Position numbers and translations under genes: made by a program. This document shows, one piece after another, positions 7,619 through 39,802 of a stretch of DNA of 46,759 nucleotides (position 1 is its first letter; each line of letters starts with the position of its first letter). The notes below the pieces were generated by a model, which made no database searches, had not been told where the DNA came from, and was given only the letters and a program-made list of their open reading frames with translations. Source of the stretch: Thermoproteota archaeon (GTDB taxonomy: Archaea > Thermoproteota > Bathyarchaeia > Bathyarchaeales > Bathycorpusculaceae); contig JAAZBP010000076.1 of NCBI GenBank assembly GCA_012513715.1, positions 1 through 46,759 of the forward strand, read 5' to 3'.

Positions 7619-8989
7619 ATGAGTATAAAGAAGCTTTTTGGAACAAATGGTGTTCGAGGTTTAGTTAACAAAGAATTAACAGTTGAAATGAGCATCAAAA
7701 TTGGAGCGGCAATCGGGACATTCTTTGGGAAAAAAAAGAATTTACTATTAGGTTATGATGCACGAACCAGCGGGCCAATGTTCGCTGAAGCGGTAACGTC
7801 AGGGTTGACTGCAACAGGATGTAATGTCTATTTTGCAGGTTTAGCATCAACCCCTGCGATTCAATATGCAGTTAAAAATCACAAGATGGACGGTGGGATA
7901 ATAATATCTGCTTCACATAACCCACCTGAATACAACGGAATCAAAACAATTTGGAGCGACGGTATAGAAACATCACATGAACAAGAATCAGAAATTGAGG
8001 ACATTTACTTCAACAACAAGATAGTATATGCAGCCTGGGATAAATTGGGCGATATACGGAAAATTCAGGGAATTAACGAAGAATACAAAGACGCCATAAA
8101 AAAACATGTTAACATAGATAGAATAGCAACAAAAAAGTTCCACATAGTTGTTGACGCTGCCAACAGTGTAGGAGGAATATCCCTGCCTCCGTTGCTAAGA
8201 GAAATAGGATGTAAATGCACAACCATTAACGCTAACATTGACGGCACCTTCCCCGGACGGTTACCAGAACCAAGACCTGAAAGCCTTGGACCATTATCAG
8301 CGACAGTAAAAGCTATTGGAGCAGACATGGGTGTTGCCTTTGACGGAGACGCTGATCGCTCAATCTTTACAGATAGTGAAGGAACAGTTTACTGGGGAGA
8401 TAAAACATTCGCTATCGTAATAAAACAGTATCTTATTAAAAATCCAGGCGCAAAAATAGTTACACCAGTGAGTTCTTCTTCTCTAATCAAAGATATTGTA
8501 GAAACATACAATGGAGAATTGGTTTGGACTAAAGTTGGAAGTGTAACAGTTTCACAAAAAATGAAGGAACTTAACGCCAAATTAGGTGGAGAAGAAAACG
8601 GAGGAATTTTTTATGGTCCACACCAAGCAGTTCGTGACGGGGCAATGACAACCGCACTACTCTTAGATATAATGGCAGAAACAGGAAAAACACTTGCTCA
8701 ACTTGTTGCAGAACAACCTCAATATTTTATTGAAAAAGGCAAAATTAATTGCTCCAATGAAAAAAAGGAAAAGTTGCAACAAGAAATTTACAAACAAGTA
8801 AAAGAAGAAAACGTTAGTACAATTGATGGAGTAAAAATCTGGTTCAAAGACGATAGCGCAATACTTATTCGAGCAAGTGGAACAGAACCAGTGTTCAGGC
8901 TTTATGCAGAGGCAAAAAACCAAGAAAAGGCACTAAATCTAATTGAAGAATATAGTGCAAAGCTTGAAAAAATTTTAACAACTATATAG
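7619..8989 (+). CDS. glmM: Phosphoglucosamine/phosphomannomutase family protein
   Basis: LFGTNGVRGLVN, SASHNPPEYNGIK, DGDADRS, RASGTEPVFRLYAE. Confidence 0.9.
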   Translation: MSIKKLFGTNGVRGLVNKELTVEMSIKIGAAIGTFFGKKKNLLLGYDARTSGPMFAEAVTSGLTATGCNVYFAGLASTPAIQYAVKNHKMDGGIIISASHNPPEYNGIKTIWSDGIETSHEQESEIEDIYFNNKIVYAAWDKLGDIRKIQGINEEYKDAIKKHVNIDRIATKKFHIVVDAANSVGGISLPPLLREIGCKCTTINANIDGTFPGRLPEPRPESLGPLSATVKAIGADMGVAFDGDADRSIFTDSEGTVYWGDKTFAIVIKQYLIKNPGAKIVTPVSSSSLIKDIVETYNGELVWTKVGSVTVSQKMKELNAKLGGEENGGIFYGPHQAVRDGAMTTALLLDIMAETGKTLAQLVAEQPQYFIEKGKINCSNEKKEKLQQEIYKQVKEENVSTIDGVKIWFKDDSAILIRASGTEPVFRLYAEAKNQEKALNLIEEYSAKLEKILTTI

Positions 8990-9016
8990 GATACAAGAAG
9001 CTTTGAGGAAAAAATT

Positions 9017-10342
9017 GTGGCCGCAACCCCATTTTTAGAGCCCCAAGAGGTTAACATTGTAGAGAAACGCTCAAAACATAGCGTGGCTATTATCGGTTGT
9101 GGAGTTAAAGGAATTTTTTTCGCAAACCTTTTTGCTGAATCAGGATACACCGTAATTTGTACAGATGCTGACCCGAGTATTGTGAAGAAAACTGCAAAGG
9201 GAAAAACAATATCTTCAAAACCAGAACTTGAAATTTTGCTTAAAAACAATATAAGAAAGGGCCAAATCAGTGTGGGTAGCGAGATAAAAAAAGTTGTTTC
9301 CCAAAGCGATATAATAATCGTAACCATTTCCGCAGTTGATAAAAAAGAAAGAACAGACAATACACAGCTTTTAAACATCTGTAAGCAAGTCGGCTCAGCG
9401 ATACAACAAGGCACACTAGTGATTTATGGTGGTATCTCAACTCTAGGCTTCATAGAAGGGAATTTGAAAGAAGTATTAGAGAACACGTCCGGCCTTAAAG
9501 TAGGACAAAGTTTTGGTTTAGCATACTGTCCACTACTTAACACAAATGTACAGTTATCTGATTTAGAACTTATAGTTTCAGCTTTAGATAAAAGAAGTTT
9601 AGAGTCAGCTTCGACAGTACTCAAAACAGTAACTAAAAAAGTGAAGGAAATCAATGAAATTAAAACAGCTGAATTTGTAGCGCTAGCCACTATTACGATT
9701 CGGGACGTCAACACAGCAATAGCAAACGAGTTAGCAATTTTTTGTGAGAACGCTAACATTGACTATTTTAAAGTGATGGGGCTTTTAGGGTTAAACGAAA
9801 TTAACCTCAAACCGTCAATTTTAGATGAAGAAGAAAAAAACGAAGCGTATATGCTAGTAGATAGTTCAGAGAATTTGAATATTAAACTTAGACTACCAAC
9901 TTTAGCCAGGCAAATAAACGAAGATATGCTTAAACATGCAGTAAAAATAACCCAGAACACCCTAAGAAGACTCAATAAAACACTTAGAAGGAGCAAAGTA
10001 ACAATTTTAGGTAATACAAAGCCAGAGTCTACTAACGAGAGTTTTATTAGAATAATTGAACAGAAAGGCGCAAAGGTCAATCTCTATGATCATTCAATAA
10101 AAAAAGACGACGTTAAATCAGAAAAAGTAAAAAACAATTTGAATGAGGCGGTTGAAGGAACAGATTGTATTATCATAGTGAACTGGCAAGATCAATTCAA
10201 TCGTTTAAACATAAAAAGATTCAAATCGTTAATGAAGTCGCCTGCTGCAATAATAGATTTTAGTGGCAAATTAGATCCAAAAAAGATAGAAACAGAAGGA
10301 TTCATATACGCTAGCTTAGGAAGAGGAACTGATTATAAATGA
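9017..10342 (+). CDS. UDP-glucose/GDP-mannose dehydrogenase-like protein, divergent (canonical catalytic Cys loop not seen)
   Basis: N-terminal Rossmann VAIIGCGVKGIFFANLFAESGYTV; C-terminal UDP-binding-like VTILGNTKPESTNES...; GTG start. Confidence 0.75.
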   Translation: MAATPFLEPQEVNIVEKRSKHSVAIIGCGVKGIFFANLFAESGYTVICTDADPSIVKKTAKGKTISSKPELEILLKNNIRKGQISVGSEIKKVVSQSDIIIVTISAVDKKERTDNTQLLNICKQVGSAIQQGTLVIYGGISTLGFIEGNLKEVLENTSGLKVGQSFGLAYCPLLNTNVQLSDLELIVSALDKRSLESASTVLKTVTKKVKEINEIKTAEFVALATITIRDVNTAIANELAIFCENANIDYFKVMGLLGLNEINLKPSILDEEEKNEAYMLVDSSENLNIKLRLPTLARQINEDMLKHAVKITQNTLRRLNKTLRRSKVTILGNTKPESTNESFIRIIEQKGAKVNLYDHSIKKDDVKSEKVKNNLNEAVEGTDCIIIVNWQDQFNRLNIKRFKSLMKSPAAIIDFSGKLDPKKIETEGFIYASLGRGTDYK

Positions 10343-11289
10343 CTAAATTGGGTGTAGCGGTGATTGGTGCTGGGCAGTGGGGAAAAAACCACGTACGAGT
10401 CTACAGCGAACTACCAAACGCAGAACTAATAGCAGTATGCGACAAAAACAAACAAACCGCCAAAACAATAGCAAAACAATACAAAATAAAAGCCTACACA
10501 AACACCACACAAATGCTAAAAAACAAAGACATAAAAGCAGTAAACATCTGCACATGGTCCACACACCTAGCAAAAGAAGCACAAAAAGCCCTAAACCAAG
10601 AAAAACACGTCCTAATAGAAAAACCCATGGCAACAACCCCACAACAAGCCCAACAACTAGTACAACAAGCAAAACAAAACAACCTACACCTAACAGTAGG
10701 ATTCCTAATGCGCTTCATACCAGGACTACAACACATACACCAAACAGCACAAACAAACCAAAACGGACAAATCGTATGCGCAACAGCCAAACGCGTATCA
10801 CAATGGCCCCAAAGAATAGGAGACGTAGGAGTAGTAAAAGACACAGCAATACACGACATAGACACAATGAACTACCTATTCAACCAACAACCAACAACCG
10901 TATACGCCAAAACAGGAAACCTAAAAAACAAAAAATACGAAGACTACGCACACATAATGCTAACATACAAAAACGCACAAACAGCATTCATAGAAACAAA
11001 CTGGCTAACACCCTACAAAACAAGAACCCTAACAGTAACAGCAACCCAAGCAATAATGAAACTAGACTACATAACACAAGAAATAACAATAGAAAAACAA
11101 ACAGAAACAACAAAACCAAGACTACCAATACAAGAACCACTAAAAGCAGAACTACAACACTTCATAGAATGCATCACACAACACAAAAAACCACAAATAA
11201 CAGGAGAAGACGGAGTAAAAGCCCTAACAGTAGCCACAGCAGCACTCAAATCGTCAGCAAAAAACAAAGCAATAAAACTAGAAACATAA
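10339..11289 (+). CDS. Gfo/Idh/MocA family oxidoreductase (nucleotide-sugar 3-dehydrogenase-like)
   Basis: GVAVIGAGQWGKNHVRVY, HVLIEKPMA, DTAIHDIDTMNYL; ATGA overlap with upstream gene. Confidence 0.9.
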   Translation: MTKLGVAVIGAGQWGKNHVRVYSELPNAELIAVCDKNKQTAKTIAKQYKIKAYTNTTQMLKNKDIKAVNICTWSTHLAKEAQKALNQEKHVLIEKPMATTPQQAQQLVQQAKQNNLHLTVGFLMRFIPGLQHIHQTAQTNQNGQIVCATAKRVSQWPQRIGDVGVVKDTAIHDIDTMNYLFNQQPTTVYAKTGNLKNKKYEDYAHIMLTYKNAQTAFIETNWLTPYKTRTLTVTATQAIMKLDYITQEITIEKQTETTKPRLPIQEPLKAELQHFIECITQHKKPQITGEDGVKALTVATAALKSSAKNKAIKLET

Positions 11290-11300
11290 AAACAAAAAAA

Positions 11301-11570
11301 TCACTTCAAACAAAAAGGCTTACCCTCAGAAACGATTTTATCAGGGATTTTTTCTCGCCATTTCTTAAGGAAAGGTAAGTCTTCTGCTTCTTTGCGGAGT
11401 TCATCTGGAAGCATTTCTGGGATTTCGTCTCTAATAGGGTACCAGCGATTACATTCTGGGCAAACAATTAACCCTTCAACTATTTCGTCTTTTTCATTAA
11501 AAACATGAAGTTCAAGGGGATGATGTTTGTCTATTGGACAGGCTAAGATATCCATCAGTTTACGTTTCAT
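11301..11570 (-). CDS. Trm112-like zinc-ribbon protein
   Basis: MKRKLMDILACPIDKHHPLELHV...EGLIVCPECNRWYPIRDEIPEMLPDELR. Confidence 0.85.
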   Translation of the reverse strand: MKRKLMDILACPIDKHHPLELHVFNEKDEIVEGLIVCPECNRWYPIRDEIPEMLPDELRKEAEDLPFLKKWREKIPDKIVSEGKPFCLK

Positions 11571-11604: not shown

Positions 11605-12480
11605 CTATAAAAACTTGCTTGGTGACTCATTTATGTTAATATCCAACACAGTTTGATACCAGTTGGGACCAATTGGGCGCACGATACGGGATGATGAAAA
11701 AACGTAGAATACGCCTAAATTGTCTAAAGTATCAGCGACTTTCTTCTGGGTTTTTTCTAAAGGATTTTCACCTTTACTTGCATGTTGAAAATCGTAGTAA
11801 TGTATCCAGCCGCCTTCTTTTTTCAGGGCTGACAAAGCAGAGGGAAGATATTCTAATGCTTTCTCGGGCAGGAGCATCAAAACTCGGTCAGCCAAACCTT
11901 GCAAGTTGGTTAAAACCAATTTCTTTGAATCACCAAGTAAAGGAAACACTCGTCCGTAAACGCCGTTAAGCTTTACATTATCCTGCATGAAATTGTAAGC
12001 TATGGGGTTAATGTCAATTGAGTATACTATTGCAGAATGGACTTTCTTAGCAATCAGTATACTAAAACAACCTACACCTGAGAACATATTAACTACTTTT
12101 TCGTTGGGTAATACTTTGTTGGCTATTCGTGAACGTTCAAAGGATAGCCGTGGTGAAAAATAACAGTTTTTTACATCAACTGAAAAAACACAACCATTTT
12201 CTTTATGATTAGTGATTGTTTTATTTTCACCTGCCAAGAGGATTAGTTCTCTAACTCTAAAGTCATCTTTTACAGGGCTTTTTTGAAGAAATACACTTTT
12301 AACATTCTTATGAGTATGCATTATTTGTTTTGCTATTTCACTTGCGTCTTGAAGGCCGCTGGAAGGGATTTTTATAATTACTATGTTACCAATTATGTCA
12401 AAAGAGCTGAATATCTTATTTAATGCTTCAGGCGAAATTACATTTGCAAGTTTATTCTTCAGTCTTTTCCTCAACACCAT
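11605..12480 (-). CDS. trm5: tRNA (guanine37-N1)-methyltransferase Trm5 family
   Basis: SVDVKNCYFSPRLSFERSRIA, VVNMFSGVGCFSI; class I MTase. Confidence 0.88.
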   Translation of the reverse strand: MVLRKRLKNKLANVISPEALNKIFSSFDIIGNIVIIKIPSSGLQDASEIAKQIMHTHKNVKSVFLQKSPVKDDFRVRELILLAGENKTITNHKENGCVFSVDVKNCYFSPRLSFERSRIANKVLPNEKVVNMFSGVGCFSILIAKKVHSAIVYSIDINPIAYNFMQDNVKLNGVYGRVFPLLGDSKKLVLTNLQGLADRVLMLLPEKALEYLPSALSALKKEGGWIHYYDFQHASKGENPLEKTQKKVADTLDNLGVFYVFSSSRIVRPIGPNWYQTVLDININESPSKFL

Positions 12481-15237: not shown

Positions 15238-15422
15238 ACCATTTCACACCCCTTTACCAGATAGTAAACAAGCTGGATGGTCATGTTTAGCTAAGAGCTA
15301 AAATTAAACTTTACCATTTAACAGAGGAAGTGAAGAAGCTAAATAAGGTTTAAAAAAGGAGTTATAAGATAGGGATTCTTAAAAGCAGGATTTCCTAATC
15401 AAATAAGTTCGGTGTCTGTGAT

Positions 15423-16385
15423 TTGGATGAACTATTAGAGCAGAGGCTTATAACAGCATTAAAAAAACAGAAGTACCATTTAATTGGCAAACATTCTGCA
15501 GTAAAAAGATGCAAATGGCTCTACGAATCAATAGTTAACAATAGACCATGCTATAAACAGAAGTTTTACGGCATTCAATCTCACCGTTGCATTCAGATGT
15601 CACCCTCTCTTTACTATTGTACCCAAGAATGTTTGTTCTGTTGGAGAATTCAAAGCGGAGATTTAGAAACCAAATGGAATGAAATGCATAATCCAAACAG
15701 AGACACACCAGAGCAGATAGTTGAAGGCTGCTTTAGAGCTCAAGAAAAAATAATATCCGGATATAAAGGTAATGAAAAAACGGATTGGGTAAAGTTACGG
15801 GAAGCACAGAGACCTAACCAAGTTGCCATAAGCCTAACTGGAGAACCAACACTTTATGAACCGCTTGGTGAATTGATTGAATTATTTAAGAAAAAGGGTT
15901 TAACTACTTTCTTAGTAACCAATGGAACCTTACCAACGAGACTTCTGAATCTAAAACAAGAACCAACGCAACTTTATGTTTCACTTTGTGCACCTAACGA
16001 GAATGTTTACAACAAAGTATGCCGGCCTCAATTTTCGAGTGCCTGGTCTAAACTAAACGAAACATTAGAAACACTGCAGAGTTTTCGTTGCCCAACAGCG
16101 ATACGCATGACGATGGTTAAAAAACATAATATGGAGTTAATAGAGCAATACTCCAAAATTGTTAACAAAGCTAACCCAACATACGTCGAAGTGAAAGCAT
16201 ACATGCACATAGGATTTTCTAATTTGCGCTTAAGTTTTGATAATATGCCCATGCATGAAGAGGTGAAAGAATTCGCTGCAGAATTAGCAAAGCATACTGG
16301 CTATAATGTTTTAAATGAAGCCCCTGAAAGTCGTGTTGTGCTCTTAAGTAGATTGAAAAAACCAATACAAGTAGGTAACAGATAA
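15423..16385 (+). CDS. taw1: TYW1/Taw1, radical SAM 4-demethylwyosine synthase
   Basis: MSPSLYYCTQECLFCWR, SLTGEPTLYEPLGEL, VTNGTLPTRL; TTG start. Confidence 0.93.
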   Translation: MDELLEQRLITALKKQKYHLIGKHSAVKRCKWLYESIVNNRPCYKQKFYGIQSHRCIQMSPSLYYCTQECLFCWRIQSGDLETKWNEMHNPNRDTPEQIVEGCFRAQEKIISGYKGNEKTDWVKLREAQRPNQVAISLTGEPTLYEPLGELIELFKKKGLTTFLVTNGTLPTRLLNLKQEPTQLYVSLCAPNENVYNKVCRPQFSSAWSKLNETLETLQSFRCPTAIRMTMVKKHNMELIEQYSKIVNKANPTYVEVKAYMHIGFSNLRLSFDNMPMHEEVKEFAAELAKHTGYNVLNEAPESRVVLLSRLKKPIQVGNR

Positions 16386-17708: not shown

Positions 17709-18716
17709 ATGGGAATTAATGAAGAACCACTAATGTGGGTAGAAAAATATCGACCAAAAAACCTAGACGAAGTTATTGGCTTACACGACATTGTTGAAAG
17801 CCTTAAAGCATTTATGAGAAACCCAAAGACCATGCCGCACCTCATGTTAACCGGAGTGCCAGGGACTGGTAAAACAACAATTGCACTCGCAATCGCCCAT
17901 GAGTTATATGGTAAAAACTGGAGAAATTTCACCCTTGAATTGAACGCCTCTGATGAAAGAGGCATTGACACTGTCAGAGACAGAATAAAAGATTTCAGTC
18001 GTTACAGTCGCTCAGGTTTTGGAGATATACCTTTTGCATTAATTATTCTTGATGAATCTGATCAAATGACTGGACCAGCTCAAACAGCACTCAGAAGGAT
18101 AATGGAAATAGGATCACGGACCTCTAGATTTATTCTAATTTGTAACCAATCTAGCAAGATAATCGAGCCAATTCAAAGTCGGTGCGCTATTTTTCGTTTT
18201 TCAAGAGTAGATAGACAAGCTATGAAGGAGCATTTACAGGAAATCGCTAAAAAAGAAAAAGTAGAACTACAACCTGAAGCCGCTGAAAGAATTGTAGAAT
18301 ACTCTGAGGGCGATTTAAGGCATGCTATAAATGCGTTACAGACAGCAGCAGCTTACAAGGAAGGGGTAGTTGATGAAAAAACTGTATCATTGGTAATCGG
18401 TGAAGCCAGTCCCATACAAGTTCAGAAAATGATTCGTAAAGCACTATACGGTGACTTTATGGAATCCAGAAAAACAATGTATGAGATAATGGGCTCTTAT
18501 GGCTTTTCAGGCTCAGAGATTATAAGACAAATACAGAGAGAACTCTTTAAAATGTCGGACATTACCCCAGAGCAAAAAGCGGACCTATCAAACATAATCG
18601 GTGAATACGACTATAGGTTGACACAAGGCGCAAACAGCGATATTCAACTTAGTGCACTTTTAGCCCAGTTTGCAAAATATGGAAAGGATATAGAGGAAAA
18701 TTATGCAGCGAAATGA
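17709..18716 (+). CDS. rfcS: Replication factor C small subunit
   Basis: WVEKYRPKNLDEVIG, GVPGTGKTT, LDESDQMT. Confidence 0.96.
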   Translation: MGINEEPLMWVEKYRPKNLDEVIGLHDIVESLKAFMRNPKTMPHLMLTGVPGTGKTTIALAIAHELYGKNWRNFTLELNASDERGIDTVRDRIKDFSRYSRSGFGDIPFALIILDESDQMTGPAQTALRRIMEIGSRTSRFILICNQSSKIIEPIQSRCAIFRFSRVDRQAMKEHLQEIAKKEKVELQPEAAERIVEYSEGDLRHAINALQTAAAYKEGVVDEKTVSLVIGEASPIQVQKMIRKALYGDFMESRKTMYEIMGSYGFSGSEIIRQIQRELFKMSDITPEQKADLSNIIGEYDYRLTQGANSDIQLSALLAQFAKYGKDIEENYAAK

Positions 18717-39307: not shown

Positions 39308-39802
39308 ATGGCAACTGACACCAAAAATAAAAGACCTAATTGGGACAGATACTTCTTAGATCTGTGTGAAGCAATTGCTGCACGTGCAACTTGCGACCGG
39401 GGAAAATGTGGTTGTGTAATAGTCAAAGACAAAAGGATAATGACAACAGGCTACGTAGGTGCACCTGCTGGGCTTCCACATTGTGATGAGGAGGGACACG
39501 ACATACGTAAAGTAACGAATTCAAATGGTGAAGTTACCCAACATTGTGTACGAACTTTACATGCGGAACAAAATGCTATTCTTCAAGCTGCAAGGTTTGG
39601 TATACCATTAGAAGGCGCGACACTGTTTTGTAAAATGACACCGTGCCGGACATGTGCAATGATGATAATTAACGCGGGAATAAAAAGAGTCGTATGTGAG
39701 AAACGTTACCATGCTGATTCAGATACGATTTGTATGTTCAAACAAGCAGGAATTGAACTTACAATAGTTAATCATGAATTTGAAAAGTATGATAACCAGT
39801 GA
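39308..39802 (+). CDS. dCMP deaminase-like cytidine deaminase superfamily protein
   Basis: HCVRTLHAEQNAILQAARFG, CKMTPCRTCAMMIINAGIKRVVCEKRY. Confidence 0.93.
   Translation: MATDTKNKRPNWDRYFLDLCEAIAARATCDRGKCGCVIVKDKRIMTTGYVGAPAGLPHCDEEGHDIRKVTNSNGEVTQHCVRTLHAEQNAILQAARFGIPLEGATLFCKMTPCRTCAMMIINAGIKRVVCEKRYHADSDTICMFKQAGIELTIVNHEFEKYDNQ

Follow-up and report, generated by a model that had tools for sequence, protein, structure and literature searches.

The question raised by this locus is why one gene, lying between neighbours of mixed third positions, should be written for nearly its whole length in codons that end in A or C. The window, that is, the whole stretch of DNA analysed, comprises 46,759 nucleotides of a Thermoproteota archaeon of the Bathycorpusculaceae (contig JAAZBP010000076.1), and the features on which the analysis draws are the following.

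9017..10342, + strand: UDP-sugar dehydrogenase-like gene without tract, control for synteny and substitution direction
10339..11289, + strand: tract-bearing gene of a Gfo/Idh/MocA-family oxidoreductase, 316 amino acids (Pfam PF01408, 7.3e-30; PF02894, 4.6e-17)
10348..10380, + strand: short stretch, codons 4-13, of third positions G or T save for one A, adjoining the A/C tract
10381..11333, + strand: A/C tract, third positions A or C except in ATG, TGG and one TCG, running about 44 bp beyond the stop
11290..11333, + strand: non-coding extension of the tract between convergent genes, 79.5% A+C
11301..11570, - strand: Trm112-like gene, convergent, control, without tract except for about ten G/T-ended codons at its 3' end
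11605..12480, - strand: TRM5/TYW2-like methyltransferase gene without tract, control

The A/C tract of the Gfo/Idh gene

The original prediction had described a tract of A- or C-ended codons from codon 15 to the stop with a single TCG, and the description proved accurate, since the codon counts agree. Over codons 15-315 the third positions are A in 209 cases, C in 83 and G in 10, the ten G being accounted for by six ATG, three TGG and the TCG at 11251. The statement that leucine is written without TTA or TTG was likewise borne out by all 23 leucine codons (22 CTA and one CTC), and so were the mixed third positions of the neighbouring genes and the integrity of the Gfo/Idh motifs, both Pfam domains being matched. 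When ATG and TGG are skipped, the longest run of A/C-ended codons in this gene reaches 281, and the runner-up gene in the window reaches 21. Independently of frame, the A+C content of 10381-11333 is 76.9%, against 59.2% for the best other 900-bp stretch and a mean of 51.1% (sd 4.1), and a second-order Markov control of the window contained zero tracts. The left edge is sharp, an abrupt switch from keto to amino bases against the G/T-ended stretch at 10348-10380, which is so short that it reaches only modest significance, and on the right the tract ends some 44 bp downstream of the stop. The G/T-ended codons at the 3' end of the Trm112-like gene have the same physical polarity as the adjoining A/C tract. 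Elsewhere in the window, at 39308-39802 on the + strand, lies the sole gene of the dCMP/cytidine deaminase family found in the source genome, with ordinary codon usage.

Distribution of the tracts

The tract had been taken to be special to the Gfo/Idh gene, which is wrong, for it is one among many in the genus. Scanning for runs of 25 A/C-ended codons yielded 50 runs in the source genome (31 + 19), some of which are simple Pro/Thr-type repeats and many of which lie in ordinary genes on other contigs. Among the relatives, of which those with a name are Candidatus Bathyarchaeota, scanned for runs of 35, such runs were held by 57 of 61 genomes, on both strands, with the highest counts in genomes G023 (359), G026 (345) and G027 (287). 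In a phylum-wide sample scanned for runs of 39, counts of at least 36 were confined to the family of the window and ranged elsewhere from 0 to 28, the runs outside the family being taken as counts, uninspected, with simple repeats among those listed. We regard it as very probable that a strand-polarised phenomenon at the level of DNA is real and genus-wide, and have little confidence in any one mechanism for it. The open-access literature offered no account of such tracts in Bathyarchaeia, and as far as we could find they have apparently not been described before.

Anatomy and polarity

In a three-state segmentation by coding sense, M tracts (A/C third positions) and K tracts (G/T third positions) were each found to move the first and second codon positions, and the first positions of leucine codons, in the same direction as the third. 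Both polarities occur in one genome and even in one gene, as in a transposase-like gene on contig C161, which is M over codons 0-149 and becomes K over codons 269-455, and the sense bias varies by species, G026 being mostly K and G007 mostly M. A frame-free segmentation of three tract-rich genomes, on contigs not picked for tracts, gave median lengths of 257-380 bp and placed 17-29% of the sampled DNA in tracts, against 0.2-1.7% in Markov controls. Patch size ranges from about 0.1 to 2 kb and the edges are sharp. Because the regions of G000, G007, G041 and G060 were picked for containing tracts, only G023, G026, G027 and G058 give roughly unbiased fractions. With genes called by a simple score, tracts covered 34% of the DNA outside called genes in G023 and 42% in G027, and intergenic DNA was hit at least as hard as genic DNA in G023, G026 and G027. 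Around start codons tracts are about half as frequent. Within tracts all six reading frames are almost open, since one strand has little G or T, and naive choice of ORFs was misled by this, in the window as well. A Rfam scan of tract-rich loci returned one tRNA and nothing else.

The polarity of the tracts alternates within kilobases, without the long-range switching of an origin and terminus; in the near-complete G007 the runs of the two strands (46 and 45) are interleaved without replichore pattern. Relative to the transcribed strand polarity is also inconsistent, as the shares of sense-M and sense-K flip sign between species and both occur within one gene. The idea that tracts arise at promoters, M tracts lying towards the 5' ends and K tracts towards the 3' ends, failed across species, and a junction signature of the kind left by double-strand breaks was discarded because K-to-M junctions are as frequent as M-to-K junctions. 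A search for an initiation site or a consistent point of polarity found none. In G007, A/C-sense runs take up 15.6% of codons and G/T-sense runs 1.8%, with leucine TTA retained, and for this reason the A/C-sense excess of this genome may be partly an ordinary translational codon preference overlaid on tracts. At loci L191-L210 of the same genome, A/C-ended sense codons are frequent outside sharp tracts too. Two side observations concern repeats. The right ends of L061 (about 8924-9048) and L045 (about 1453-1575), on contigs C21 and C41 of G000, carry identical A/C tract sequence, and since both contigs end in it, some tracts coincide with assembly-breaking repeats. In L164, inverted G-run/TCTAAAGAGAGA repeats at 15390-15430 and 18010-18095 bracket a segment whose + strand is A/C at the left end and G/T at the right end.

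Orthologues and branch length of the protein

Orthologues of the Gfo/Idh gene were found in 39 of 46 genomes, with the upstream and downstream neighbours kept around them in most of the genus. Most of these orthologues are without tract, and some bear partial ones: a long, eroded M tract occupies the corresponding region in G009 and in G021, and a shorter one is present in G011. Since synteny is kept, most orthologues are tract-free and some are partly affected, the gene is native, and tracts have been gained, lost or eroded over time. An in-frame TGA in the Gfo orthologue of G025 (L133) marks a possible pseudogene or assembly error.

In trees of single proteins, the Gfo/Idh protein of the window groups within the genus, and its terminal branch measures 0.320, where branches in its group have a median of 0.058 and reach 0.096 at most. 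The neighbour proteins of the same lineage have branches that are long, not extreme (0.453 with a maximum of 0.442, and 0.350 with a maximum of 0.406). Where an amino-acid column is conserved to at least 80% elsewhere, replacements towards A/C-richer codons number 35 and those in the opposite sense 3 (p = 7e-8).

Direction and type of change

The Gfo tract shows 40 changes towards A/C at conserved first and second positions (19 transitions and 21 transversions), 3 transitions and no transversion away, and 13 changes within A/C, whereas the pooled neighbour genes gave 22 transitions and 3 transversions towards A/C against 26 and 6 away. In other M tracts of the same syntenic region in relatives, transversions were 13 towards and 2 away, compared with 72 to 127 outside tracts (p = 1.6e-4), and a transition bias was absent at conserved non-synonymous sites of these tracts (10 to 12). 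K tracts lean the opposite way to M tracts, with too few events to test. The original prediction had proposed a strand-specific process at the level of DNA, in which T turns into C and G into A and the change is preserved where synonymous. In outline this agrees with the data, which include both polarities, genic and intergenic DNA, and a protein dragged along; its restriction to synonymous transitions is too narrow for a tract whose changes towards A/C are transversions (21) as often as transitions (19).

The genomes G041 and G060 are about 94% identical and have most of their tracts in common. In the shared tracts, synonymous changes that cross between amino and keto bases are suppressed, both as transitions (43/1163 vs 718/8022) and as transversions (5/1163 vs 101/8022), while exchange between A and C is not suppressed (36/609) and is raised 2.8-fold. 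We infer from these counts that a tract is a maintained state, set by the amino or keto class of the base and not by the type of mutation. On the keto strand the change from C to T is more complete than that from A to G, with exceptions of 3.9% vs 17%.

A hairpin repeat in G023

G023 contains a hairpin-forming repeat, about 120-145 bp long, in at least 42 copies, for example at L152:8091-8235; its ends are of the type CAGACTGTCC...GGACAGTCTC, and its orientation follows the polarity of the surrounding tract. Read in the orientation of the repeat itself, the flanks of up to 50 bp are A/C-rich (>0.62) in 35 of 43 copies and G/T-rich (<0.38) in 1 of 43, and at a distance of about 500 bp nothing of the effect is left above background. 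Of seven other repeat families, six have no relation between orientation and polarity, and the seventh has three copies only. Since the most consensus-like copy already has A/C flanks, the repeat is read as inserting into existing tracts in a fixed orientation; alternatively, the element may cause the tracts, or may plainly prefer A/C-rich targets. It is possibly a single-strand-inserting element, and its orientation would be expected if one strand were mostly treated as single-stranded DNA at such loci, bearing only indirectly on the persistent single-stranded G/T strand that deamination would require. Within the repeat, transitions towards and away from A/C number 114:66 in A/C-flanked copies and 38:61 in neutral-flanked copies (p = 9e-5).

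Possible causes of the tracts

The best fit to these observations is a process acting on DNA, stable at each locus, that favours amino (A, C) over keto (G, T) bases on one strand. As the source of the tracts we prefer, though with low confidence, strand-polar recombination with rejection of keto-keto mismatches, according to the specificity of EndoMS/NucS. The EndoMS of Sulfolobus cuts G/T, G/G and T/T mismatches and spares A/A, C/C, A/C, T/C and A/G (PMC7736090), and the amino/keto class boundary of the tracts coincides exactly with this specificity. Were one particular strand always the single strand that invades when homologous recombination or DNA uptake takes place at a tract locus, any keto variant it carried would meet a keto base, in a G/T, G/G or T/T mismatch, and would be rejected when EndoMS/NucS cuts, while an amino variant would meet an amino base (A/C, A/A or C/C), would be ignored by the enzyme and could stay. 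Repeated conversion biased in this way would render the invading strand A/C and its complement G/T. The bias or suppression of crossing changes, with A and C exchanged unsuppressed, is what conversion leads one to expect, except for the transitions at conserved sites of the other M tracts. Against this mechanism, the raised A and C exchange in M tracts is unpredicted by biased conversion alone, and a motif scan for NucS, in the sampled loci only, gave zero matches. The wider proposal is that an unrecognised evolutionary force operates in Bathyarchaeia, either strand-polar conversion in favour of amino bases or an equivalent bias at the level of base class. It would rewrite patches of kilobase size towards A and C on one strand and G and T on the other, without regard to genes, would override protein conservation and would cover more than a quarter of some genomes; this seems to us plausible though short of probable.

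A different origin would be strand-restricted deamination, in which a long-lived single strand (R-loop, D-loop or similar) suffers C to U and A to hypoxanthine and becomes the G/T strand, and which we regard as unlikely. The codon signature equals the one found on the A/C-rich L strand of mitochondrial DNA (PMC3269012), the fuller conversion of C to T than of A to G on the keto strand fits such chemistry, and so does the shift of transitions towards A/C by A/C flanks in the non-coding G023 repeat. In addition, EndoV (deoxyinosine endonuclease) is missing or broken in 20 of 32 genus genomes, including the nine densest in tracts and with fragments containing stops in G012 and G021, and genomes without it carry 59.8 tracts per Mb vs 22.1, with p = 0.017 when phylogeny is ignored. 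Within subclades, however, EndoV loss and tract load part company, for G021 and G017 lack EndoV and have few tracts, and G018 and G011 have it and many, and the loss was rejected as the cause on the ground that its association with load is inconsistent there. Loss of uracil repair (UDG) or of an EndoQ-like enzyme was rejected as well, being without relation to tract load, as was a multiplication of genes for nucleotide deaminases, since a genome has just 0-2 members of the dCMP deaminase family. Moreover, deamination predicts unbiased transversions, whereas transversions towards A/C and away from it stand at 21:0 for the Gfo tract and at 13:2 for the other M tracts, and crossing transversions are suppressed in stable tracts. 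Since transversions are biased too, deamination is excluded as the sole cause, and a pure strand redistribution of transitions, favoured after the analysis of the G023 repeat, was dropped for the same reason.

Selection on the nucleotides themselves, for instance for DNA or RNA free of self-pairing for a few hundred bases at a stretch, which either A/C or G/T could provide, would act on the amino or keto class whatever the mutation type and would suppress crossing changes, as observed; even so, we think it improbable. The original prediction had offered an unstructured mRNA, and this fits the Gfo/Idh gene, whose mRNA has far less structure than synonymous recodings of it (z = +6.0). It does not fit a G/T-sense gene, where structure is unchanged (z = 0.0), or mosaic genes, whose structure exceeds that of their recodings (z = -4.8, -3.0), and is excluded as a general cause. 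Selection of any such kind must also face the intergenic DNA of G023, G026 and G027, at least equally affected, the overriding of conserved amino acids, and tract-free orthologues of the same gene, which no known reason would exempt from it. Translational selection, by which A- and C-ended codons would be optimal as Watson-Crick partners of U34/G34 tRNAs, finds some ground in G007, where A/C-sense runs dominate with TTA kept and part of the signal may be codon preference. As an explanation of the tracts it is very unlikely, for G/T-sense tracts use the opposite codons in all sampled genomes and dominate G026, and the tract of the window avoids TTA, shifts first and second positions and includes non-coding DNA; the use of both codon sets and the intergenic tracts exclude it as a general cause. 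The sharp edge inside the gene could recall a chimeric assembly or a gene taken up from a genome that has this codon usage throughout, the latter being a refutation that the original prediction had named. Either is scarcely credible, since the syntenic orthologues are mostly free of tract and unbiased: the neighbours are conserved around them in most of the genus, the protein lies inside the genus tree, albeit on a long branch, and partial tracts occur in the orthologues of G009, G021 and G011.

Relation to known strand asymmetries

In animal mitochondrial DNA a G/T-rich H strand faces an A/C-rich L strand, and the likeness to the tracts extends to the same base classes and a strand-wise effect on codons (PMC3269012). 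The mitochondrial molecule differs in having one polarity, strand-displacement replication and deamination transitions, whereas the tracts of Bathyarchaeia form alternating patches of 0.1-2 kb that are blind to gene direction and include transversions. The GC skew of bacterial and archaeal replichores (chirochores) is, like the tracts, a strand asymmetry independent of coding direction; unlike it, the tracts switch every few hundred bases. GC-biased gene conversion shares the logic proposed here, in that a base-class mismatch bias in recombination drives composition despite protein constraint, but the proposed conversion would favour amino over keto bases on one strand and thus produce asymmetry, not a change of GC. 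Diversity-generating retroelements also cause strand-specific local change in coding DNA. They alter template adenines in a variable repeat and diversify the protein, whereas the changes in tracts leave G/T, have A as the favoured end state, conserve the fold and are genome-wide and intergenic; judged by the direction of the changes, such an element was rejected because adenine-specific mutagenesis does not agree with A as the favoured end state. We know of no cause of strand compositional asymmetry that yields alternating kilobase patches, ignores replication and transcription and biases transversions, and for this reason we rate the phenomenon as new in kind, although its broad heading, strand compositional asymmetry, is already known.

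If this reading is true, these genomes would be split into short strand-polarised patches by a process tied neither to replication direction nor to transcription, and the new kind of strand asymmetry would offer a handle on mismatch handling and the polarity of recombination in archaea without cultured models. Gene calling, codon-usage tests, phylogenies and dN/dS in this group of Bathyarchaeia are distorted by the tracts; in the tree of the Gfo/Idh protein, for instance, no other terminal branch of the genus is as long as that of the window's own protein.
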